From assembly GCA_019912395.1 (NCBI GenBank), contig JAIOIH010000087.1:124001-188000 (forward strand): a stretch of 64,000 bases of DNA. Direction: 5' to 3'. The position numbers were made by a program, and so were the translations under genes. Shown in pieces: positions 16,345 to 28,387 of this stretch; the stretch's first letter is position 1; every line of letters starts with the position of its first letter. This DNA comes from Flavobacteriales bacterium. Its GTDB lineage: Bacteria > Bacteroidota > Bacteroidia > Flavobacteriales_F > PHOS-HE28. The notes beneath the pieces were generated by a model. It ran no database searches. It saw only the letters and a list, made by a program, of their open reading frames with translations, and was not told where the DNA came from.

Positions 16345-16453
16345 CGCACTGCGGACCCTCTTTTTGGCGTGAGGTGTGTCGGTCCCCTACTTCTACTTGT
16401 CCTTGTCCGCGGCAGGCATGCTTGGCGGTCCGCACTTCAGAACGTTGCGCATC

Positions 16454-16485
16454 CGTTGCGTTCGTTGCGTCGTTGCGGTTAAACC
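16454..16485 (+). repeat. Dispersed intergenic repeat, copy B
   Basis: Repeated CGTTGCG units ending CGGTTAAACC, related to copies at 3956-3978 and 35532-35563. It lies between the divergent GH20 and rpsP genes. Confidence 0.5.
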
Positions 16486-16497
16486 TTTCCCCACTTG

Positions 16498-16528
16498 TTT
16501 GTCAGTTCAGGGAAAAACCCGACATTTG
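16498..16528 (+). promoter_or_regulatory. Promoter of rpsP
   Basis: A TTTG -33 box (16498-16501), exactly 19 nt of spacer, and a GACATTTG -7 box (16521-16528) match the Bacteroidota promoter layout with one mismatch. The leader to ATG 16568 is about 35 nt. Confidence 0.55.
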
Positions 16529-16567
16529 CCACCCCTTAACGAAAAGGGACCAAAAACCAACCGCGAC

Positions 16568-17191
16568 ATGCCGACCCGCATCCGCCTTCAGAGAAAAGGC
16601 AAAAAAGGCAAGCCCTTCTACCACTTGGTAGTGGCTGACCAACGCGCTCCGCGCGACGGAAAATACATCGAACGCATCGGGGCATACGACCCGAACCGCA
16701 ACCCTGCCCTGGTGGAGGTGGACCGCGACAAGGCGTTGGATTGGCTCCAGAAAGGTGCCCAGCCCAGTGATACCGCCCGTGCCATCCTCAGCTACAGCGG
16801 CGTGGTGTACAAGAACCACCTGCTGAACGGGGTGAAGAAGGGTGCATTCGATCAAGAAGAGGCCGATCGCCGGTTCGATGCCTGGTTGAACGAAAAGAAC
16901 AACAAGGTTGAAGCCAAGCGTGAGCGCATCGTGGATAGCGCTGCCAAGGCATTCAAGGACCGCCTTGCTCTGGAGACCAAGAAATCCCACGATCGTGCGG
17001 ATGCGTTGACGGCCAAGTTGGCTGCCTCCATGGCACCGCCCCCTACCGCGGAAGCGGAGGCCACTCCCGCCGAGGGCGATGCCGCTCCCGCAGCGGAGGC
17101 CGAAGCTGCACCCGAGGCCGAAGCTGCTGCTGCTCCGGAAGCGAGCGAACCAGCCGCCCCTGCTGACGACGCGCCCGCCGAAAAGGAGTGA
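16568..17191 (+). CDS. rpsP: 30S ribosomal protein S16 with long Ala/Glu/Pro tail
   Basis: 207 residues. The first 80 or so are classic S16 (MPTRIRLQRKGKKGKPFYHLVVADQRAPRDG, IERIGAYDP, DWLQKGAQPSDT). The rest is a charged helical stretch (about 110-155) and a low-complexity Ala/Pro/Glu tail, a length increase often seen in Bacteroidota S16. Start ATG 16568 matches the S16 N-terminus; the frame is open further upstream but lies across the promoter. A strong terminator follows at 17215. Confidence 0.95.
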   Translation: MPTRIRLQRKGKKGKPFYHLVVADQRAPRDGKYIERIGAYDPNRNPALVEVDRDKALDWLQKGAQPSDTARAILSYSGVVYKNHLLNGVKKGAFDQEEADRRFDAWLNEKNNKVEAKRERIVDSAAKAFKDRLALETKKSHDRADALTAKLAASMAPPPTAEAEATPAEGDAAPAAEAEAAPEAEAAAAPEASEPAAPADDAPAEKE

Positions 17192-19988: not shown

Positions 19989-20681
19989 TCAGTCCATGGT
20001 GCGCAGCACCTCGGCAAGCGTGGCGAAGAGGGTTCGCGCCACCTCGCGGTCCATGCGGCCGTTATGGGCAAAACGCTGGTTCACTTCCAGTTCGATCCCG
20101 CCATAATGCCTCGGGAAGAGGTGCCGCATCGTGGTGGGCAATCCATCGGAAATGCCTTTGTAGGGCTGGTTCATCCGCACGGTCAAGCTCGGCATGCGGT
20201 GCTTGAGCACCCTCCGCCAGGACAGACAGAAGTTGCGTTCGTTCGCTCGCGCGGGATCGTACAGCAGGCCGATGTCCATGGTGCGCTTTACGCCGTTCAA
20301 CACGGGCGTGAAACTGTGTACCGCCACATGCATCACCTCGGTCCTCGCGGCGATCCGTTCCCGCGTCCGTTCGATAAAGTCGTTGCGGTAGCGGTGATGA
20401 AGATCCAGTAGGCGCTGTTTTTGCGCAGCACCCAACTGGCGGGTGAATTCGGAGAAGAGCCGGGGATGGGCCTCGGACCGGTTCAGCTCGATGCACAACC
20501 GCGAAAGGGTGGCATAAGTGGTTTCCGCCGCCAGCGGGGCCAACCGATGGAAGAGGTCCAGCGCACCGAGGTCGAGGGCGCGATGCGTTTCAAGCACATC
20601 CTCATGTCCGGCAAAGCAGGGGAGAAGGTCCTTGGGCACCTCGTTCCCACCGTGCTCGCAGCTGAGGAAGAGCGCGGTCAT
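19989..20681 (-). CDS. N-formylglutamate amidohydrolase family protein
   Basis: 230 residues. SCEHGGNEVP near the N-terminus is the family metal-site motif. HSFTPVLNGVKRTMDIGLLYDP and GIELEVNQRF also fit. Known members hydrolyse N-formyl-glutamate to formate and glutamate in histidine breakdown, but no hut genes are here. In this operon it may act on a glutamyl or acyl-glutamyl amide. ATG 20681 overlaps the GCS2 gene stop (ATGA); open frame further upstream is only an antiphase extension. Last gene of the four-gene operon. Confidence 0.82.
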   Translation of the reverse strand: MTALFLSCEHGGNEVPKDLLPCFAGHEDVLETHRALDLGALDLFHRLAPLAAETTYATLSRLCIELNRSEAHPRLFSEFTRQLGAAQKQRLLDLHHRYRNDFIERTRERIAARTEVMHVAVHSFTPVLNGVKRTMDIGLLYDPARANERNFCLSWRRVLKHRMPSLTVRMNQPYKGISDGLPTTMRHLFPRHYGGIELEVNQRFAHNGRMDREVARTLFATLAEVLRTMD

Positions 20682-21910
20682 TGCAGTTGGCGATCCTCGC
20701 GCAGGCAGGCGGCGAGCTCCTTGTACACGTCCTTGATCCGCTCGGCATCCGGTTCGGCTCCAGTGCGCGCGAGGATCCTCTGGGCCAAGCATCCGTGATC
20801 GAGGATGTGCGTGATGGCGGTGCGCGCATCGCTGCTCATGCCCGTTCCCACTTCGGCGAAGATGTGGGCCCAGAGATCCCTGGCCGTGGCCTCCGGGCGG
20901 TCCATCCCGAACATCAACAGGAATTCCTTCCGGTGGATCGGGGTGGCCCCGGCATCCTTGATCACCTCCTTGAAGATGGCCAGCAGGTCGTTCTGGTGCC
21001 AGGCACGCTGCAGGTAGTTGCTCACCCAGCGCCCGTCCACCAAGGCCTTCAGGGTTTCCACGATCAGCTCGGCGATGGCGAGGTCCGCACCGGGGCACTC
21101 CTGGATGTCCACCACGCGGATCTCGATGGCGTTGCGGTCGAAGCGGGCGATGGCACCCCGCGAGTTGGCGAACTGGTGGTCCATGATCCCCTCCGGATCG
21201 AAGGGCGCCAGGGCCTTCCCGATCGGGCCGAAAATCTCGCGGTAGTATTCCTCTTCGTTCAGCACGGCCTCGGGGATCAACGCGCCCATGAGCTGCGGAA
21301 GCCGCTCCTGATGATGCAGGTAGGCTTCCATCCGGGCGTCCATGTGGCCGGTGGGCTTGCCGTCCAGAATGGGGGAGCTGGCGCTAAGGGCCGGAATGAT
21401 GGGGAGCAGGAGCCGGATCGCGGTGTGGAGTTTGGCGAACTCCTCGTCGTTGGCGAAGGGCAGATTGAGGTGTACGCTCTGGAGGTTGCTCCAGCCATGG
21501 CCGCGACAATCGAAGATGCGGTTGTAGAGCGCATAGATCTCGTTGTTGTCGTGCGGCCAGATCACCGTCTCGGTGAAGGGGTCGAAGAGGGGATGGGCCG
21601 CTGTGGGCAGCAGCATGAGACCGCGCTTGGCGAGGAGGGCATCGATGGCACGCACTTCGGAGGCGAACTTCTCCCTATAGGACGGGATGCTCGGCGTGGG
21701 CCTGGCGGTCTTCAGCTCCACCACGTGGGCCACCAGTTCGTTGCTCCAGTCCACATCGCCGCGCTCCACATCGCTGGTGATCGCACCGCTGACATCCTTG
21801 AAGAGCAGGTCCACGGTGGGGCTGGCCCGCAAGGTTTCACGGTCCACCACCATGTACTCCAGTTCGATGCCGGTGACCTCGAAAAGGCCGTAGGGTTTCC
21901 GCTCGCTCAT
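20678..21910 (-). CDS. GCS2-type carboxylate-amine ligase (glutamate-cysteine ligase-like)
   Basis: 410 residues. GIELEYMVVDRETL near the N-terminus carries the paired acidic residues of the glutamine synthetase-like fold. QSVHLNLPFANDEEF, ARFDRNAIEIRVVDIQECP and MEAYLHHQERLP are typical of the GCS2/YbdK-like ligases, which use ATP to join the gamma-carboxylate of glutamate or a related acid to an amine. Start ATG 21910 overlaps the ATP-grasp gene stop (ATGA), and the amidohydrolase start overlaps its own stop. With the adjacent ATP-grasp ligase it predicts two sequential amide-bond formations. Confidence 0.85.
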   Translation of the reverse strand: MSERKPYGLFEVTGIELEYMVVDRETLRASPTVDLLFKDVSGAITSDVERGDVDWSNELVAHVVELKTARPTPSIPSYREKFASEVRAIDALLAKRGLMLLPTAAHPLFDPFTETVIWPHDNNEIYALYNRIFDCRGHGWSNLQSVHLNLPFANDEEFAKLHTAIRLLLPIIPALSASSPILDGKPTGHMDARMEAYLHHQERLPQLMGALIPEAVLNEEEYYREIFGPIGKALAPFDPEGIMDHQFANSRGAIARFDRNAIEIRVVDIQECPGADLAIAELIVETLKALVDGRWVSNYLQRAWHQNDLLAIFKEVIKDAGATPIHRKEFLLMFGMDRPEATARDLWAHIFAEVGTGMSSDARTAITHILDHGCLAQRILARTGAEPDAERIKDVYKELAACLREDRQLQ

Positions 21911-23409
21911 GACTTGGCCGGGGTGGTCCCGACGGTGGTTTGTGGTATGCCGATCTTCTTCTCGATGGTCTTTTTCAGCGAACCGATGATGCGGCGGTAG
22001 ATCTCGTCCCCCAGTTCCACATCCTCTATCCCATGGTCGATGTTGGGGCATTCGTTCACTTCGATCACGTAGGCCTTGCCGTTGTGCTCCTTCACATCCA
22101 CACCGAAAAGACCGTGGTCGCCCACCATGGCGCGGACGGCCTTCAGCGCGGCGTCCATGATGTGCTTGGCACATTCTTCCACCTTCACCGTTTCGAAATT
22201 GCCCGTCTCGCCGTCCTTCGTGGTACTGCCCCAGTTGTAGATCTGCCAATGGCCACGTGCCATGTAGTATTTGCAGGCATAGAGCGGCTTGCCGTCCAGC
22301 ACCCCCACCCGCCAGTCGAAGTCGCTGGGCATGTATTCCTGCGCCACGGCAAGATCGCTTGTGGACAGGATCTTATCCAGCTTGGTGTCCAGTTCCTTCT
22401 GGTCCTTGGCCTTTTCCACCCCTACGCTGAAGGTGCTGTCCGGCAATTTCAGCACCACCGGGAACCCGAGTCGTTGCCCCACCTCGTGGCGGTTCTCGCT
22501 GTGTACGATCATGGTGCGCGGAGTGGGTACGTGGTGCGCCTCCATCACCTCCGCGAGGTAGACCTTGTTGTTGCACTTGAGGATCGCGTCCGGGGCATCC
22601 ATCACCGCCAGCCCTTCCTGCTGTGCCTTCCGCGCCATGCGGTAGGTGTGGTTGTTCACGTGGGTGTTCTCGCGGATCAACAATGCATCGTATTCGCTGA
22701 TGCGGTCAATGTCGTCCGGACCGATGATGTCCACCCGGAAGCCCATCTCTTCCGCGGCCTGCCTGAATTTCACGATGGCGCGCTTGTTCGAGGGCGCGGC
22801 CTTGTCATCGGGGTTCACCAGGATCGCCAAGTCGTAGGCACTGCGGTCCTCCCGGGCGGTGTCGTAGCGCTTCTTCCCGAAGTATTCAGCGGCGAACTCC
22901 TTCAGCAACGGGATGTGCTCTTCCTCGATGTCCTTGTACGGAACGGGGCGCACCGAGCGCAGCTCCCATTTTTCGCCCTTCACGAAACGGGCACGCAGCA
23001 ATGGGGCTTCAAAGACCTTGTACAGCTCATGCGCGAGCTTGTCGTACCGCGGGTTCACGTTCCGGCCGAAGTACATGCTCAGGGTGAAGTCGTGCTTTTC
23101 CTTATGCCCCAAACTGTGCTGGATCACCTCATCGAGGTCGCGCGAGAGCACCTTCACGATGCTCGGGTTCTTCAGGTCGAGGATGGTCTTGGCACTGGGG
23201 ATCACCTTCTGTCCGCGGGCCTCCGCCAGCAGGCTCACGTAGTAGCCCCGGCTCTGGTACACAAAACTGCGGGCCAGGTTGAAGATGCGCGTGTTCCTCA
23301 GCTGCGCGAAACGCGGTGCGGTCAGATAATCCTTGCTGGAGACCACCTCCACGCCCGGCGCCCCCAATTTGAAGGCCTTGGGATCATGCACCACAATGAT
23401 CTTCTTCAT
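21907..23409 (-). CDS. RimK-like ATP-grasp ligase with N-terminal RLAN-type domain
   Basis: 500 residues. Residues 1 to about 150 (IIVVHDPKAFKLGAPGVEVVSSKDYL, ARSFVYQSRGYYVSLLAEARG) resemble the RimK-like ATP-grasp N-terminal domain. From about 200 a pre-ATP-grasp domain leads to the ATP-grasp core (KCNNKVYLAEVM, FPVVLKLPDSTFSVGVEKA, then DVKEHNGKAYVIEVNECPNIDHG with the Mg-binding Glu and Asn). RimK relatives add glutamate or other amino acids to an acyl acceptor through an acylphosphate. Acceptor unknown. Start and stop overlap both neighbours by 4 bp. Confidence 0.87.
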   Translation of the reverse strand: MKKIIVVHDPKAFKLGAPGVEVVSSKDYLTAPRFAQLRNTRIFNLARSFVYQSRGYYVSLLAEARGQKVIPSAKTILDLKNPSIVKVLSRDLDEVIQHSLGHKEKHDFTLSMYFGRNVNPRYDKLAHELYKVFEAPLLRARFVKGEKWELRSVRPVPYKDIEEEHIPLLKEFAAEYFGKKRYDTAREDRSAYDLAILVNPDDKAAPSNKRAIVKFRQAAEEMGFRVDIIGPDDIDRISEYDALLIRENTHVNNHTYRMARKAQQEGLAVMDAPDAILKCNNKVYLAEVMEAHHVPTPRTMIVHSENRHEVGQRLGFPVVLKLPDSTFSVGVEKAKDQKELDTKLDKILSTSDLAVAQEYMPSDFDWRVGVLDGKPLYACKYYMARGHWQIYNWGSTTKDGETGNFETVKVEECAKHIMDAALKAVRAMVGDHGLFGVDVKEHNGKAYVIEVNECPNIDHGIEDVELGDEIYRRIIGSLKKTIEKKIGIPQTTVGTTPAKS

Positions 23410-24113
23410 TCGGTGAAGGGGGTTGGGGAGAGGACAAGCAAGTTGGCGTCATAGGTCACGATGCCCAGCATGATGCTGTTGATCAAACGACCCACGGGCA
23501 CTTCGTAGGTACGCCCTTCGGCCATGGGATTGTCGTGATAGGGATCGGCAACGAAGACGTGTTTCTTCTCCATGCCGCGCAGTACCACGAAGTGCCCCAT
23601 GGGCTTGCCGCGCAGGTCATGGTACACGCTTCGGCCCTTGGAGTCGGCGTATTCGCGTTTGCTCTTGTAGAGATATGTGGCACTGAGGCCGGCCAGAATG
23701 GGCAGGTTTGCGTTGAAGTAGGTGTTCAGAAGGGCAGGGGAGGGATCATCGAACCGGATATCACCGCCTTCCTTCAGAAAGCGGGCGTAGGCCAAGGATG
23801 CCGCGTGCAGCTTCTTCCCGTCCTTGATCCGCGTCTGCGCGATCAACTTCCGGCGCAGGGCTTCCGGGGATAGACCATCCCAGGAAGGATCGAAGACGGC
23901 GAGGTTATAGCTGTAGAGCCGGACGTGATAGCCGCGCAGCAGTGCATGGATCCCCAGCAACACCGCCAAAGTGCCGCCTTCCTCCATGTGGTGTACCTCA
24001 TTGATCACCTGCTGCAAGGGGTCCTTTTCGCCGAAATGCCGATAGACGGCGTGGAGCGCCGTAGCGCCGCAGGTGTCGTCATCGGGCTGGGCCTCGATCC
24101 GAAGGTTTTGCAT
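23406..24113 (-). CDS. C39-like papain-fold cysteine peptidase
   Basis: 235 residues without signal peptide. DDDTCGATALHAVYRHFG holds the likely catalytic Cys, MGHFVVLRGM the His and VFVADPYHDNP the Asp, in the order of C39/papain-like peptidases. It is first in an operon with two ligases and an amidohydrolase, so it may process or trim the product or act as an acyltransferase. ATG 24113 has no Shine-Dalgarno of its own. A 10-codon upstream ORF with a good one ends 2 nt before it, suggesting translation by re-initiation. Confidence 0.8.
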   Translation of the reverse strand: MQNLRIEAQPDDDTCGATALHAVYRHFGEKDPLQQVINEVHHMEEGGTLAVLLGIHALLRGYHVRLYSYNLAVFDPSWDGLSPEALRRKLIAQTRIKDGKKLHAASLAYARFLKEGGDIRFDDPSPALLNTYFNANLPILAGLSATYLYKSKREYADSKGRSVYHDLRGKPMGHFVVLRGMEKKHVFVADPYHDNPMAEGRTYEVPVGRLINSIMLGIVTYDANLLVLSPTPFTE

Positions 24114-24115
24114 GG

Positions 24116-24148
24116 TTAGTGCCGGTGGCTATGGGCGATGGTCATCAT
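24116..24148 (-). CDS. 10-codon upstream ORF, MMTIAHSHRH
   Basis: ATG-ATG start, TAA stop at 24116-24118, then CC and the ATG of the C39-like gene. An AAGGAG at 24157-24162 lies 8 nt upstream, the best ribosome binding site in this neighbourhood. Three of ten residues are His. It may couple or regulate translation of the operon. Confidence 0.4.
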   Translation of the reverse strand: MMTIAHSHRH

Positions 24149-24156
24149 GACACATG

Positions 24157-24162
24157 CTCCTT
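24157..24162 (-). promoter_or_regulatory. Shine-Dalgarno AAGGAG of the upstream ORF
   Basis: AAGGAG with an 8-nt spacer to ATG 24148. Such clear sites are rare in this window. Confidence 0.45.
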
Positions 24163-24173
24163 CGCCGACGGTG

Positions 24174-24181
24174 CAAAGTTC
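24174..24181 (-). promoter_or_regulatory. -7 promoter box of the peptide-ligase operon
   Basis: GAACTTTG, one mismatch to TA-N2-TTTG. The predicted leader to the C39-like gene is about 55 nt and contains the upstream ORF. Confidence 0.4.
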
Positions 24182-24298: not shown

Positions 24299-25228
24299 TC
24301 AATGCGACTGAAATGCCTCCGGCGGGCGGAACATCACGTGCAGTTCCCGCTCCACATCAAAGGGCATCACCAGCCATGGCGGTGCCAAGGTGCTCCGCGC
24401 GATCAGCTTGCCCCCCGCATCGAAGATCCCCAGGATGATCGGGTCCTTACGGGTGGTGTCCTCCACCCGCAGGCTGTAGATCAAGCGGGCATGGAGGGTG
24501 TCGTTCGGATCCTCCAGCCCCCTGCCGTAATAAATGGACAAGTTGCGCAGGTACTTTTCCACCTTGACATTGTCCGCTGGCTGGCCGTTCACGATCCAGT
24601 CCGTGCCGCTTCGCTCCAGGGAATACCCCACACTTCCGGGAAATACGAAGGTGATGCGCTCCCAGTGGTCAGGGTCTCCGTTCACCATGGGCTTCGGTAT
24701 CCAGCCGATGAAGTCGAGGTCCATGATCCACGTGATCGCACCGGGCACCAGGTACACGTTGGGGTCTCCATCCAGGATCACGGCCGTGGCGGGATCATCT
24801 CCTCCGGAGGTGGTCCCGATGCGGAGCGTGACCTTCTTCGGATCGCGAAGGACCAATGTGTTGGCGAGGCTGTCGCTCAGTCCGTAGCGCTCAATGGTGG
24901 CGGCATCGGCACCGGCCACGGCTCGTGGGCGCATGTCCACCAGCGCCGCCAGCAGGCGGTTCAAGGGCGTGGTGAACGCTGGGGTGGCGCGGTCGCCTTG
25001 GGTGGCGGTCCAGCCTAGGCCGTCGCGTTGAAACTGGATCAGGGAGTCGTGCCTCGCAGGTGCCGGAATGATGGTAAAGGAGCGCAACGCAGCGGTATCC
25101 ACGGCCAGCAGCTGTTTGGGGAAACTGCGCTGCTCAGCTTCCAAGGGAGTGCGCCCACCGATCCACCAGACCAAGGCGAGAACCACCACCAAGGCGGCCA
25201 GCAGCGTAATGCGGACCTTATCGGACAT
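24299..25228 (-). CDS. DUF4340 domain protein, gliding-operon partner
   Basis: 309 residues. One N-terminal membrane anchor (ITLLAALVVVLALVWWIGG), then repeated beta units typical of DUF4340 (RYGLSDSLANTLVLRDPKKVTLRIG, WERITFVFPGSVGYSLERSGTDWIVNGQPAD). In many bacteria this family follows GldG-like ABC genes and probably works with them in the cell envelope. It overlaps the end of gldG by 11 bp, so it is the last gene of the gldA-gldF-gldG operon. Confidence 0.83.
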   Translation of the reverse strand: MSDKVRITLLAALVVVLALVWWIGGRTPLEAEQRSFPKQLLAVDTAALRSFTIIPAPARHDSLIQFQRDGLGWTATQGDRATPAFTTPLNRLLAALVDMRPRAVAGADAATIERYGLSDSLANTLVLRDPKKVTLRIGTTSGGDDPATAVILDGDPNVYLVPGAITWIMDLDFIGWIPKPMVNGDPDHWERITFVFPGSVGYSLERSGTDWIVNGQPADNVKVEKYLRNLSIYYGRGLEDPNDTLHARLIYSLRVEDTTRKDPIILGIFDAGGKLIARSTLAPPWLVMPFDVERELHVMFRPPEAFQSH

Positions 25229-26732
25229 GGTCTGGTGCCATGCGGCGTTTGCGCTGTTGGCGACGCCATTGTCCGCGGAACAGGCCATAGAGCAGGACCA
25301 CCACGATCGGTAGCAACAGGTTCAACCACTTCAGGAAGGAGCGCTCCGTATCACCGGGATCGGTAATGGGGCGATAGTTCTTCTGCTTCCCCCGGATCGA
25401 AAGCAGCTCCGTGTTTCGGGTCACCCAATCCGTGGCGTTCACCATCAGGTCCAGGTTTCCCTTCGGCAGCGCCGCTTGCTGCCCCCCTTGGTCCCCCGTG
25501 CAGAAATTGCCATTGCTGAAGACCACCAATCGGCCTGCGGAAGTATCCACGGGTTCCACCGCTCCGCCCAGTACTTGAGGACCCAACGGGAAATCCGCAT
25601 CGGTCCACTTTTTCCGCAGGTCGATGGTCAAGGGAGTGTATTTCAACCCGCTCCGGGAACTGGTACTGAGAATGGGGGAGAACCGCAGTTTCGTGCTGTC
25701 GCCGATGAAGGTCATGGGTGAAGCGAACTGGAACATTACCATGTCCAGACCGTGCGCCACCGGATGCTCGTTGAACTGCTCCAGCAGCGGATAGTAAGGG
25801 AATTGAATGGAGATCGGTTGCTGGATGGCGCTCTGCATCACACCCACTTGTCCGCAATGCTCGTCCACCACGATCCCAGGACCGATGCGCACTCCATGCC
25901 GCGCCAGCCATGGACTGATGCCGATGTCGCGCATGCGGGCTTCAGGTGAAACGGCCAGGTTCGTCTCCACCGCGCTGAAAGCCAGCACCACGCCGTGTCC
26001 CTTGGCCATGTAGTCATCGATCAGTTTCAGGTGCCAAGCCGAAATGCTGTCCTTGGGGTCGATCACCAGAATGGAGGTGAAGCGCTCGTTGATGGGGAAG
26101 GAGTCATAGATCGCCGTGGCCTCCACATCGTACTGGGCGTTCAATAGGGTGGCCAGTTCATCCAGGTCCCTTGTCGAGGGTTCCATGTGCCCCTGCATGA
26201 TGCCGATCAATGGCTTTTCGATCCGGATCACCTGGGCGATGGCTGAGGAAAGGATCCATTCCATTCCCGGTCCTTCCTGCAACGCAGGGATCGCCGAACT
26301 GCGTTCGCCCATACGCACTACGGCGCCCATGAGTACTTGGATGTTCTCACTGCGGTCCTTCTGCCTGGTTTGGGCGAGCAAGGGGCGCACACCTTCCTGC
26401 ATGGCCTTCGCTGCCACGAGGTCCGAACTTCCGGGATCCTCAAATTCGAAAACCAATTTGCCCCCGGAGCGCTCGGCGTATTCCACCAGCAAGTCCTTGA
26501 AATCCTGGCGAACTACCGCCAGTTCCGGCGGGAGATCCCCGGTAAAGTAGGCGGTTACGGTCACTGTTTCGGGCAATCCCTGGATCAGTTCCAGCGTGGC
26601 CCGGTCCAGTGTATAGCGTTTATCTCCGGTGAGGTCCGCACGGAATTTGTAGCGCTGGGCCAGCAGGTTCACGAATACGATGGCCACGATGGCCAGCAAC
26701 AACGTGATCAGCGGTGCGGCGCGCGTGCTCAT
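25218..26732 (-). CDS. gldG: Gliding motility-associated ABC transporter protein GldG
   Basis: 504 residues with one N-terminal membrane helix (LITLLLAIVAIVFVNLLAQRY), a long periplasmic ABC-type uncharacterised domain (FRADLTGDKRYTLDRATLELIQGLPETVTVTAYFTG in outline) and a C-terminal membrane helix (LNLLLPIVVVLLYGLF) before a basic tail. This architecture and gene order match GldG. GldA-GldF-GldG support gliding motility and T9SS function in Flavobacterium. The start overlaps the gldF stop (ATGA). Confidence 0.88.
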   Translation of the reverse strand: MSTRAAPLITLLLAIVAIVFVNLLAQRYKFRADLTGDKRYTLDRATLELIQGLPETVTVTAYFTGDLPPELAVVRQDFKDLLVEYAERSGGKLVFEFEDPGSSDLVAAKAMQEGVRPLLAQTRQKDRSENIQVLMGAVVRMGERSSAIPALQEGPGMEWILSSAIAQVIRIEKPLIGIMQGHMEPSTRDLDELATLLNAQYDVEATAIYDSFPINERFTSILVIDPKDSISAWHLKLIDDYMAKGHGVVLAFSAVETNLAVSPEARMRDIGISPWLARHGVRIGPGIVVDEHCGQVGVMQSAIQQPISIQFPYYPLLEQFNEHPVAHGLDMVMFQFASPMTFIGDSTKLRFSPILSTSSRSGLKYTPLTIDLRKKWTDADFPLGPQVLGGAVEPVDTSAGRLVVFSNGNFCTGDQGGQQAALPKGNLDLMVNATDWVTRNTELLSIRGKQKNYRPITDPGDTERSFLKWLNLLLPIVVVLLYGLFRGQWRRQQRKRRMAPDHVR

Positions 26733-27460
26733 GCGTGGCGTGCCCCGCGACGGGCGAGTTCATGTCCGGCGAGCAGCAGGCCGACGAAGGTGAACGTGAT
26801 GAAGAACACCAGGTCGCGGCTGTCGATCACGCCCCGTCCCATGCTCTCGTAATGGCTGCCCATGCTGAGGTAGCGGAACACCTGCCCGATCGTCCCCGTA
26901 ACGTTGGCCGCCACCACCGAGGCGCCGAAATGGAAGAAGGCCATGAAGACCAGGGCCAGTACGAAGGCCGTGATCTGGTTGGCCGTGAGGCTGCTGGCAT
27001 AAAGGCCCATTGCGATGTACGCAGCGCTCATCAGGAGCAGTCCGAGATAACCGCAGATGACGGCACCGTGGTCCACCGGCCCCAGGCTGGCCACCGTGAA
27101 ATAGTACGGAAGCGTGCAGGTCAGCGTAAGTGTGATCAGCGCAAGGCAGGCGAGGAATTTCCCGGTGACCACCTGTTGCGGGGTGACGGAGCGGGTGAGC
27201 AGGAGGTCCAAGGTGCCGCTCTTGCGTTCCTCGGCCAAGGTGCGCATGGTGAGCGCGGGGATCAGGATGAAGAACGACCAGTTGGCCACATTGAAGAAGG
27301 TGCTGAGGTCGGCGATGCCGCGGAGGAATACGTCCGTACCGAACCACCACGTAAAGAAGCCACTGGTACCCAAAAAGGCCACAATGACCAGATAGGCCAT
27401 CGGTGAATCGAAAAAGGAGGACAGTTCCTTGCGGGCGATGAGAAGGGATGCTCGCATCAT
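26729..27460 (-). CDS. gldF: Gliding motility-associated ABC permease GldF
   Basis: 243 residues with about six membrane helices. The N-terminal IARKELSSFFDSPMAYLVI and EERKSGTLDLLLTRSVTPQQVVTGKF are signatures of ABC-2 type permeases of the GldF/NosY group. It overlaps gldG by 4 bp and starts 3 bp after the gldA stop. Confidence 0.87.
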   Translation of the reverse strand: MMRASLLIARKELSSFFDSPMAYLVIVAFLGTSGFFTWWFGTDVFLRGIADLSTFFNVANWSFFILIPALTMRTLAEERKSGTLDLLLTRSVTPQQVVTGKFLACLALITLTLTCTLPYYFTVASLGPVDHGAVICGYLGLLLMSAAYIAMGLYASSLTANQITAFVLALVFMAFFHFGASVVAANVTGTIGQVFRYLSMGSHYESMGRGVIDSRDLVFFITFTFVGLLLAGHELARRGARHA

Positions 27461-27463
27461 CGA

Positions 27464-28387
27464 TCACCTGTTGGTGGCATCACGGAACACATCCTCCAGG
27501 CGGCTTTCCATGGGTCGCAATTCCCCAATGCTCCAGCCTTGCGCGGAACAGGCAGTGAAAATACGCTCGCCTTCCGCACTGCTCATGCGCACTTCGTAGC
27601 GGCCCTCGCTGCCCTGGATCGTCGAGGCACTGACCACCTCTTGGATGCCGCGCAGCAACGGAAGTACCGCATCCGGCCCCGCTCCACTGATGCGCACGTG
27701 GAACACCGTGCGCCCCAGCACCTGGGTACGTAGTTGTTCCGAGGTGCCGTCCGCAACGATCCGCCCCTTGTTGATGATGAGGATCCGGTCGCAAACCGCT
27801 TCCGCCTCCGGCAGGATATGGGTGCTGAATACCACGGTCTTGGTCTTTCCCAATTCCTTGATCAAGGTGCGCACCTCAATGATCTGGTTCGGGTCCAGGC
27901 CGGTGGTGGGTTCATCCAGTACCAGTACGGCGGGGTCGTGGACCATGGCAAAGGCCAGGCCCGCACGCTGCCTGTAGCCCCGGCTGAGCTCCCCGGTGCG
28001 CTTGTGCTTTTCATCGCCCAGGCCGCATGCATCCACCATCTCCCTGATCCTCCCGTCAATGGCGTGGCCGGGCACGCCCTGCAGTTTGGCACCGAAGCGC
28101 AGCAGGTCCAGCACCGGCATGTCCTCATACAGCGGGTTCGTCTCGGGCAGGTATCCGATGGCGCGGCGCAGGTCCACGGCTCCGGGATCCATGAGGCGAT
28201 CACCGATGAACACCTGCCCGTTGTCCGGTCCGATCAACCCGCAGATCATGCGCATGGTGGTGGTCTTGCCGGCCCCGTTCGGCCCCAGAAAACCCAGTAC
28301 CTCGCCTTCGCGCACCCGGAAGGAGACGTCGTCAACGGCCACTTGGCTACCGTAGCGCTTGGTGAGGTGCTCGGTGCGTATTTCCAT
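27464..28387 (-). CDS. gldA: Gliding motility-associated ABC ATPase GldA
   Basis: 307 residues. Walker A GPNGAGKTTT, a signature-like ELSRGYRQRAGLA and Walker B AVLVLDEPTTGLD are all present, followed by a C-terminal regulatory extension (about 215-307) usual in this group. It energises the GldF/GldG complex. First gene of the operon with gldF, gldG and the DUF4340 gene. Confidence 0.88.
   Translation of the reverse strand: MEIRTEHLTKRYGSQVAVDDVSFRVREGEVLGFLGPNGAGKTTTMRMICGLIGPDNGQVFIGDRLMDPGAVDLRRAIGYLPETNPLYEDMPVLDLLRFGAKLQGVPGHAIDGRIREMVDACGLGDEKHKRTGELSRGYRQRAGLAFAMVHDPAVLVLDEPTTGLDPNQIIEVRTLIKELGKTKTVVFSTHILPEAEAVCDRILIINKGRIVADGTSEQLRTQVLGRTVFHVRISGAGPDAVLPLLRGIQEVVSASTIQGSEGRYEVRMSSAEGERIFTACSAQGWSIGELRPMESRLEDVFRDATNR

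Follow-up and report, generated by a model that had tools for sequence, protein, structure and literature searches.

A conserved four-gene operon of two amide-bond ligases and two amide hydrolases in a Flavobacteriales bacterium

What does a bacterial operon produce when it encodes two unrelated ATP-dependent enzymes that form amide bonds together with two enzymes that break them? Such an operon lies on the minus strand of the 64,000-nucleotide stretch of Flavobacteriales DNA analysed here (the window). The two ligases very probably work together on a small peptide-like molecule, and the C39 and FGase hydrolases probably break the product down again. On balance we lean slightly towards a small, non-ribosomal, N-capped peptide that the operon makes and recycles.

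Organization of the operon and protein families

The genes and their junctions are listed below, with stop codons included in the gene coordinates.

23406..24113, minus strand: g1, stand-alone C39-like (papain-fold) cysteine peptidase, 235 aa (PF03412)
21907..23409, minus strand: g2, RLAN domain plus RimK/LysX-type ATP-grasp ligase, 500 aa (PF14401, and ATP-grasp fold in the model)
20678..21910, minus strand: g3, GCS2-type carboxylate-amine ligase, 410 aa (PF04107, and fold in the model)
19989..20681, minus strand: g4, FGase-family (N-formylglutamate amidohydrolase-like) hydrolase, 230 aa (PF05013)
23406..23409, minus strand: g1/g2 ATGA overlap, ACCGAATGAAG
21907..21910, minus strand: g2/g3 ATGA overlap, AAGTCATGAGC
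20678..20681, minus strand: g3/g4 ATGA overlap, CTGCAATGACC

The initial annotation had proposed a four-gene operon with three ATGA start-stop overlaps, and exactly this motif was found at all three junctions. The span that it gave, 19989-24181, is correct at its low end, but the operon starts at 24113 and not at 24181. Overlaps of this kind fit translational coupling, although the claim that the proteins are made in step goes beyond what they show.

Comparison with homologues showed that the conserved catalytic residues are present in the operon proteins. The peptidase g1 matches Peptidase_C39 with 35.6 bits (cut-off 22; E=1e-8), and its catalytic Gln, Cys, His and Asp (Q9, C15, H174 and D190) are invariant in 25 homologues from several phyla. 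Unlike the C39 peptidases that process bacteriocins, it carries no ABC-transporter fusion. The RLAN domain of g2 scores 154 bits (cut-off 25; E=3e-45) and is followed by an ATP-grasp domain that also matches the RimK and D-ala-D-ala-type families of Pfam, which makes g2 an RLAN-domain RimK-like ATP-grasp protein. In its predicted model (pLDDT 86.8), residues 188-486 superimpose on LysX (3vpd; Z 28.1, rmsd 2.2, 267 aligned), and RimK follows at Z 26-27; the structure-search matches are filled by the ATP-grasp part and not by the RLAN domain. Residues D438, E450 and N452 are invariant in 32 homologues. Among solved structures, those of RimK, LysX and ArgX lie closest to the ATP-grasp part (Z 26-28), but g2 differs from them in its additional RLAN domain, its operon partners and its full-length scores, which fall far below the curated cut-offs for RimK (NF007764, 23.9 versus 331) and LysX (TIGR02144, 76.9 versus 275.6). 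Nor does it qualify as a GAK-type ATP-grasp protein (TIGR04356, 17.8 versus 300).

The second ligase, g3, belongs to the GCS2 superfamily by its PF04107 score (88.8 bits, cut-off 21; E=5e-25), its glutamate-cysteine-ligase fold and its ExE and Arg/Glu core, with E16, E18, E65, R259 and E263 invariant in 30 operon copies. The predicted model (pLDDT 94.5) aligns over its full length with YbdK (1r8g; Z 38.3, rmsd 2.6, 346 aligned) and with plant glutamate-cysteine ligase (2gwc; Z 35.2), while PafA and Dop of the Pup system lie well below YbdK at Z 16-21. Despite the fold match, g3 shares only 16% identity with YbdK-family carboxylate-amine ligases and scores far under the curated cut-offs (TIGR02050, 52.4 versus 176.4; TIGR02048, 39.2 versus 249). 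For the hydrolase g4, the FGase score of 69 bits (E=7e-19) is above the curated cut-off, the closest solved structure is 2odf (Atu2144; E=1e-31 using the family profile), and H10, H118, H122, E197 and E199 are invariant in 22 homologues. A role as the HutG N-formylglutamate deformylase of histidine degradation was rejected (TIGR02017, 14.9 versus 278.75). Both g3 and g4 are the only members of their families in the genome of the window.

Conservation of the gene neighbourhood across phyla

Our survey covered 168 RLAN loci, de-duplicated and drawn from many phyla. GCS2 adjoins the ATP-grasp gene on the same strand in 114 of them, a GNAT acetyltransferase gene takes this place in 48, six loci have neither and none has both. 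Only two changes on the ATP-grasp tree explain the GCS2/GNAT state, and few evolutionary events underlie the exclusivity. The ATP-grasp enzyme can pair with either GCS2 or GNAT, the two being interchangeable partners. FGase occurs in 84 of the 114 GCS2-type loci and in none of the 48 GNAT-type loci. C39 is found with both types (77/114 among the GCS2-type loci), and g1 is a remote homologue of the DUF3335 peptidase from GNAT-type loci (hhalign 97%). We also observed one locus (L145) with ATP-grasp and FGase genes and no GCS2.

The four-gene order is identical in loci of many phyla, and the two ATP-dependent ligases and two amide hydrolases described in the initial annotation form a conserved unit. 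All junctions in the RLAN loci are co-directional (GRASP-GCS2, 114/114; C39-GRASP, 77/77; GCS2-FGase, 84/84), with median gaps of -4, -1 and -4 bp, respectively. This uniform direction, the near-zero gaps and the order kept across phyla exceed what would be expected by chance. In addition, within the planctomycete set, four genomes encode ATP-grasp and GCS2 as a single fused protein. The possibility that the homologues are scattered without linkage is contradicted by the Bacteroidota, where 30 of 395 genomes contain an operon-type GCS2 and all 30 have the ATP-grasp gene adjacent. These 30 genomes all fall within the 44 that carry RLAN, with a hypergeometric P of about 1e-34 when kinship is ignored. 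Both hydrolases are dispensable, as the counts for C39 and FGase indicate, so the proposed sequence of building and then trimming is unlikely to be obligatory.

All-against-all clustering of gene calls of at least 70 aa from more than 100 loci revealed no conserved fifth gene, whether precursor, transporter or NRPS, in agreement with the absence of such genes remarked on at the outset. This result bears on the reading of the locus as a RiPP (graspetide-like) cluster, in which C39 would cut a leader peptide and the ATP-grasp enzyme would make lactam bonds in a ribosomal precursor. We consider it highly improbable: we know of no RiPP role for GCS2 or FGase, the ATP-grasp enzyme groups with RimK and LysX, and many loci have no C39. 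RiPP loci do contain both C39 peptidases and ATP-grasp enzymes (PMC8939145), but a RiPP or bacteriocin cluster was rejected given the lack of a transporter fusion in the stand-alone C39 and of a conserved neighbour among the gene calls, all of 70 aa or longer.

The full operon was not found in the phage and plasmid collections. The plasmid matches are RLAN-type RimK proteins (30-46% identity) or remote ATP-grasp proteins, with no GCS2 seen in the one annotated plasmid neighbourhood inspected, and the phage matches span the ATP-grasp part only.

Loss of the ATP-grasp gene in the genus of the window

Seven genomes (species) of the same genus keep GCS2 and have no ATP-grasp gene. The solo GCS2 gene lies at the same genomic site wherever flanks were compared, and the tree, in which the solo proteins sit on long branches, indicates about three independent losses of the ATP-grasp gene. 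Whereas held-out operon copies lose at most 6 of 55 invariant residues, the solo proteins have lost 1, 1, 9, 18, 18, 21 and 28; five of the seven lost many catalytic residues, and the two from G024 and G026, with one loss each, are within the range of the operon copies. FGase occurs in this genus only where the ATP-grasp gene does. A presumed in-frame stop in the ATP-grasp gene of G015 turned out to be the normal stop codon.

Co-inheritance, and the way GCS2 decays once the ATP-grasp gene is lost, indicate that the two ligases belong to one pathway and that GCS2 is no independent glutathione enzyme. It is very unlikely that GCS2 acts as the glutamate-cysteine ligase of the cell, with the operon making glutathione or gamma-glutamylcysteine. 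The fold and catalytic residues of g3 agree with that role, as does its uniqueness in a genome that encodes a GSH-S_ATP-like protein elsewhere. However, its curated scores are far too low, an acetyltransferase replaces it in the GNAT-type version, and it decays even though a RimK/GSH-S-like protein persists in several of the genomes concerned. An ordinary glutathione enzyme, which the initial annotation had named as an outcome that would undo its proposal, was rejected on the basis of the curated scores and the solo GCS2 decay.

Proposed pathway and related systems

For the favoured reading, a small capped peptide, we infer the substrates, the order of steps, the bond cut by each hydrolase and the free small-molecule product. 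GCS2 would activate a carboxylate by phosphorylation and then couple it to an amine, either that of an amino acid or another one; judging from the GCS2 family, the likeliest carboxylate is the gamma-carboxylate of glutamate. Like LysX, RimK and glutathione synthetase, the RLAN/ATP-grasp enzyme would attach one more amino acid to one of the carboxylates of this molecule. The GNAT acetyltransferase would act in place of GCS2 in the sister system, which suggests that either an acyl or a glutamyl group can serve as the cap. Since C39 accompanies both versions, its most likely target is the bond on the ATP-grasp side; there is a precedent in the C39-related phytochelatin synthase, which takes glycine off glutathione (PMC10318531). 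FGase occurs only with GCS2 and so most likely removes the GCS2-made cap. As each hydrolase is missing from many loci, its assignment to a particular bond is correlative. More tentatively, these loci may represent a widespread new class of small capped peptides, made and fully recycled, in which a common ATP-grasp-made core can bear either an acetyl-type (GNAT) or a glutamyl-type (GCS2) cap, C39 opening the shared core bond and FGase releasing the GCS2 cap.

Alternatively, the ligases might tail a protein, reversibly, rather than make a metabolite. A protein target is conceivable, since RimK, which with LysX is among the closest characterised relatives of the ATP-grasp enzyme, modifies the C-terminus of a protein. 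The best structural matches of g2 are RimK, the enzyme that tails ribosomal protein S6, and LysX/ArgX, which charge the carrier protein LysW with an amino acid. PafA and Dop also appear among the GCS2 matches, and reversible tailing would explain the paired hydrolases. We nevertheless consider it unlikely, because no conserved target or carrier-protein gene accompanies the operon among gene calls of at least 70 aa, YbdK and glutamate-cysteine ligase, both small-molecule ligases, match GCS2 much more closely than PafA and Dop do, and the replacement of GCS2 by GNAT suits a capped metabolite at least equally well.

The proposed capped-peptide pathway resembles glutathione biosynthesis (GshA/GshB; fused GshF), where an enzyme of the glutamate-cysteine-ligase fold is followed by an ATP-grasp ligase, fusions of both exist and phytochelatin synthase cuts the ATP-grasp-made bond. 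It differs in that the operon ligases match no curated glutathione model, and in the RLAN domain, the FGase and C39 partners and the exchange of GCS2 for GNAT. By analogy only, the sister RLAN type recalls N-acetylglutaminylglutamine amide (NAGGN, TIGR03103), a capped dipeptide made by GNAT and ATP-grasp activities, but the operon of the window has no GNAT, and the RLAN-type GNAT (GNAT-C39) proteins of the sister loci reach at most 38 bits against a cut-off of 569.

The operon belongs to a known but uncharacterised kind. Iyer et al. 2009 (Mol Biosyst 5:1636) reportedly predicted neighbourhoods of this kind, for which we know of no tested activity. Linked distinct peptide ligases (RLAN/RimK ATP-grasp with GNAT or COOH-NH2 ligases), the same kind as in this operon, and GNAT-DUF3335 fusions were noted there, as conveyed by PMC4431377 and PMC10318531. 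The description of the conjugate as new stands for the product and not for the linked ligases, already noted in PMC4431377 (citing Iyer 2009). No experimental study of the four-gene operon was found in the literature searched. The GCS2/GNAT exclusivity, FGase-GCS2 pairing, ATP-grasp-GCS2 fusion and solo GCS2 decay were measured in the present analysis; the co-inheritance and decay data tell which genes belong together (ATP-grasp with GCS2 or GNAT) and which are optional.

RLAN ATP-grasp genes occur in about 11% of the sampled Bacteroidota; for the phyla of a gammaproteobacterial and a planctomycete MAG the figures are 18% and 27%, respectively. A small molecule or tag that is common in bacteria may thus still await a name. 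The closely related species of the genus provide natural pairs with and without the ATP-grasp gene for metabolomics, which makes an old prediction directly testable.

A four-gene operon found in several phyla

The operon consists of four open genes on the minus strand (24113-19989 of the window), whose products match the following Pfam families above the curated cut-off:

Operon gene 1, minus strand: Peptidase_C39
Operon gene 2, minus strand: RLAN plus RimK-like ATP-grasp
Operon gene 3, minus strand: GCS2
Operon gene 4, minus strand: FGase

The initial annotation had claimed ATGA start-stop overlaps at all three junctions, and these are exact in the sequence. FGase and GCS2 each occur once in the window's own genome (4.13 Mb, 99% complete), both within the operon. 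The NCBIfam models, which carry functional cut-offs, gave no named function to any of the four proteins, all scores being far below the cut-off, including those for RimK, LysX, YbdK, glutamate-cysteine ligase and HutG.

A contig scan uncovered loci in Bacteroidota, Fibrobacter, Ignavibacteriales, Balneolales, planctomycetes, Desulfobulbaceae, spirochaetes, Omnitrophota, Uhrbacteria, a myxococcal MAG and others. The order C39, ATP-grasp, GCS2, FGase is common to most of them; the Flavobacteriaceae lack the C39 gene and retain the other three. Adjacent genes were co-directional at 114/114 ATP-grasp-GCS2, 77/77 C39-ATP-grasp and 84/84 GCS2-FGase junctions, with median gaps of -4, -1 and -4 bp, respectively. 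No conserved fifth gene adjoining the operon was found across the loci among gene calls of at least 70 aa. Directly upstream of it, the window carries one further block:

24299-28387, minus strand: GldG/GldF/ABC-like and DUF4340-like block

This block adjoins the operon in most of the genus and is also kept in genomes G018 and G026 after ATP-grasp loss.

Homologues from several phyla showed invariant residues in the C39 protein (Q9, C15, H174, D190), ATP-grasp (D438, E450, N452), GCS2 (E16, E18, E65, R259, E263) and FGase (H10, H118, H122, E197, E199); judged by these residues, the four proteins are enzymes. Predicted structures were good (mean pLDDT 86.8 for ATP-grasp and 94.5 for GCS2). LysX, ArgX and RimK are the best structural matches of the modelled ATP-grasp part (Z 26-28). 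The GCS2 model aligns along almost its whole length with YbdK (Z 38) and with plant glutamate-cysteine ligase (Z 35).

RLAN systems of the GCS2 and GNAT kinds

Whole-genome surveys, which have no skew to the window's kind, detected the RLAN family in 44/395 Bacteroidota genomes and in 7/198, 72/398 and 53/199 genomes from the phyla of a Desulfobulbaceae, a gammaproteobacterial and a planctomycete MAG, respectively. Gene contexts were read for a sample of the survey genomes and for the loci found earlier; de-duplication at 95% identity left 168 loci. This set is skewed towards systems like the window's, since the contig scan was ranked by likeness to its operon. GCS2 stood beside ATP-grasp at 114 loci, and a GNAT acetyltransferase was beside it, fused to it or divergently oriented at 48, with both at none and neither at 6. 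C39 occurs in both kinds (77 GCS2-type and 29 GNAT-type loci), as remote homologues (hhalign 97%), and FGase is found at 84 loci of the GCS2 kind, none of the GNAT kind and one of the rest. The ATP-grasp tree requires 2 changes of the GCS2/GNAT state, 18 of C39 and 26 of FGase, indicating that the second ligase is fixed per lineage and that the hydrolases were gained or lost often.

At L145 (Breznakibacter) alone, an RLAN/ATP-grasp gene precedes FGase and lacks an adjacent GCS2, an exception to the FGase-GCS2 pairing. At L211-L227, L254 and L263, all from the phylum of the gammaproteobacterial MAG, the RLAN/ATP-grasp gene and a GNAT or GNAT-C39 gene are transcribed divergently and share a short upstream region; some genomes (G714, G718, G802) have two such loci.

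Single proteins of ~990-1030 aa joining RLAN, ATP-grasp and GCS2 were found in four genomes of the planctomycete set (G1177, G1231, G1202, G1171):

L247:2391-5354: RLAN-ATP-grasp-GCS2 fusion
L280: RLAN-ATP-grasp-GCS2 fusion
L281: RLAN-ATP-grasp-GCS2 fusion
L282: RLAN-ATP-grasp-GCS2 fusion, flanked by a C39 gene and an FGase gene

Other genomes carry GNAT-ATP-grasp fusions, and therefore the core ligase has been fused to either alternative partner.

Inheritance and loss of the ligases

Operon-type GCS2 was strong in 30/395 Bacteroidota genomes, all 30 among the 44 RLAN genomes and adjoining ATP-grasp (hypergeometric P ~1e-34, phylogeny ignored). Among 35 genomes of the window's genus, GCS2 is present in 33, ATP-grasp in 26 and FGase in 18, the last only together with ATP-grasp. 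Seven genomes, several near-complete and one a single contig, kept GCS2 with no ATP-grasp, C39 or FGase beside it. In G026, compared with its sister G023, the flanks are collinear and only C39 and ATP-grasp are gone; G018 retains the DUF4340/GldG/GldF/ABC neighbours seen in the window. On the tree about three ATP-grasp losses are required, and GCS2 evolved faster after them. Operon copies have 55 invariant residues, of which the seven solo copies lost 1, 1, 9, 18, 18, 21 and 28; held-out operon copies lost at most 6. Catalytic acids of the ExE motif are among those lost in five cases, G026 having E18D alone. Since solo GCS2 sheds invariant residues, its activity is not kept for its own sake and depends on the presence of ATP-grasp. 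This decay argues against a stand-alone glutathione role.

The solo genes (L273-L279, in G009, G010, G018, G021, G024, G026 and G029) lost catalytic residues and kept ~400-aa frames open over long branches; they may be pseudoenzymes with another role. A second RimK/GSH-S_ATP-like protein (G000:C9:108137-108859 in the window's own genome; 25% identity to the operon ATP-grasp) occurs in many of the genus's species, whether or not they have the operon.

Proposed reactions and earlier predictions

The two ligases, unlike in fold, most likely act on one molecule. Glutathione is made by a GCL-fold and ATP-grasp pair and N-acetylglutaminylglutamine by a GNAT and ATP-grasp pair, both being N-capped short peptides; such a product is the simplest common reading of the GCS2/GNAT exchange. 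As C39 accompanies ATP-grasp in both kinds of system, it would cut the ATP-grasp side. Phytochelatin synthase, of the C39 clan, removes glycine from glutathione, cutting an ATP-grasp-made bond (PMC10318531). FGase accompanies GCS2 only, and so would take off the GCS2-made cap. This proposed step resembles those of the amidohydrolases that cleave off glutamyl groups during the biosynthesis of ergothioneine and butirosin. The frequent loss of C39 and FGase makes a part in recycling more likely for them than one in maturation.

According to PMC4431377, which cites Iyer et al. 2009, ATP-grasp ligases had already been seen in operonic linkage with COOH-NH2 ligases or GNATs, and PMC10318531 again notes fusions of DUF3335 peptidases to GNATs. 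The operon thus belongs to a known kind, already predicted and apparently uncharacterised; the quantitative results may be new.

Elsewhere in the window we observed one further feature:

16376-17191, plus strand: ORF resembling ribosomal protein S16, extended at the C-terminus by a long Ala/Glu/Pro-rich stretch
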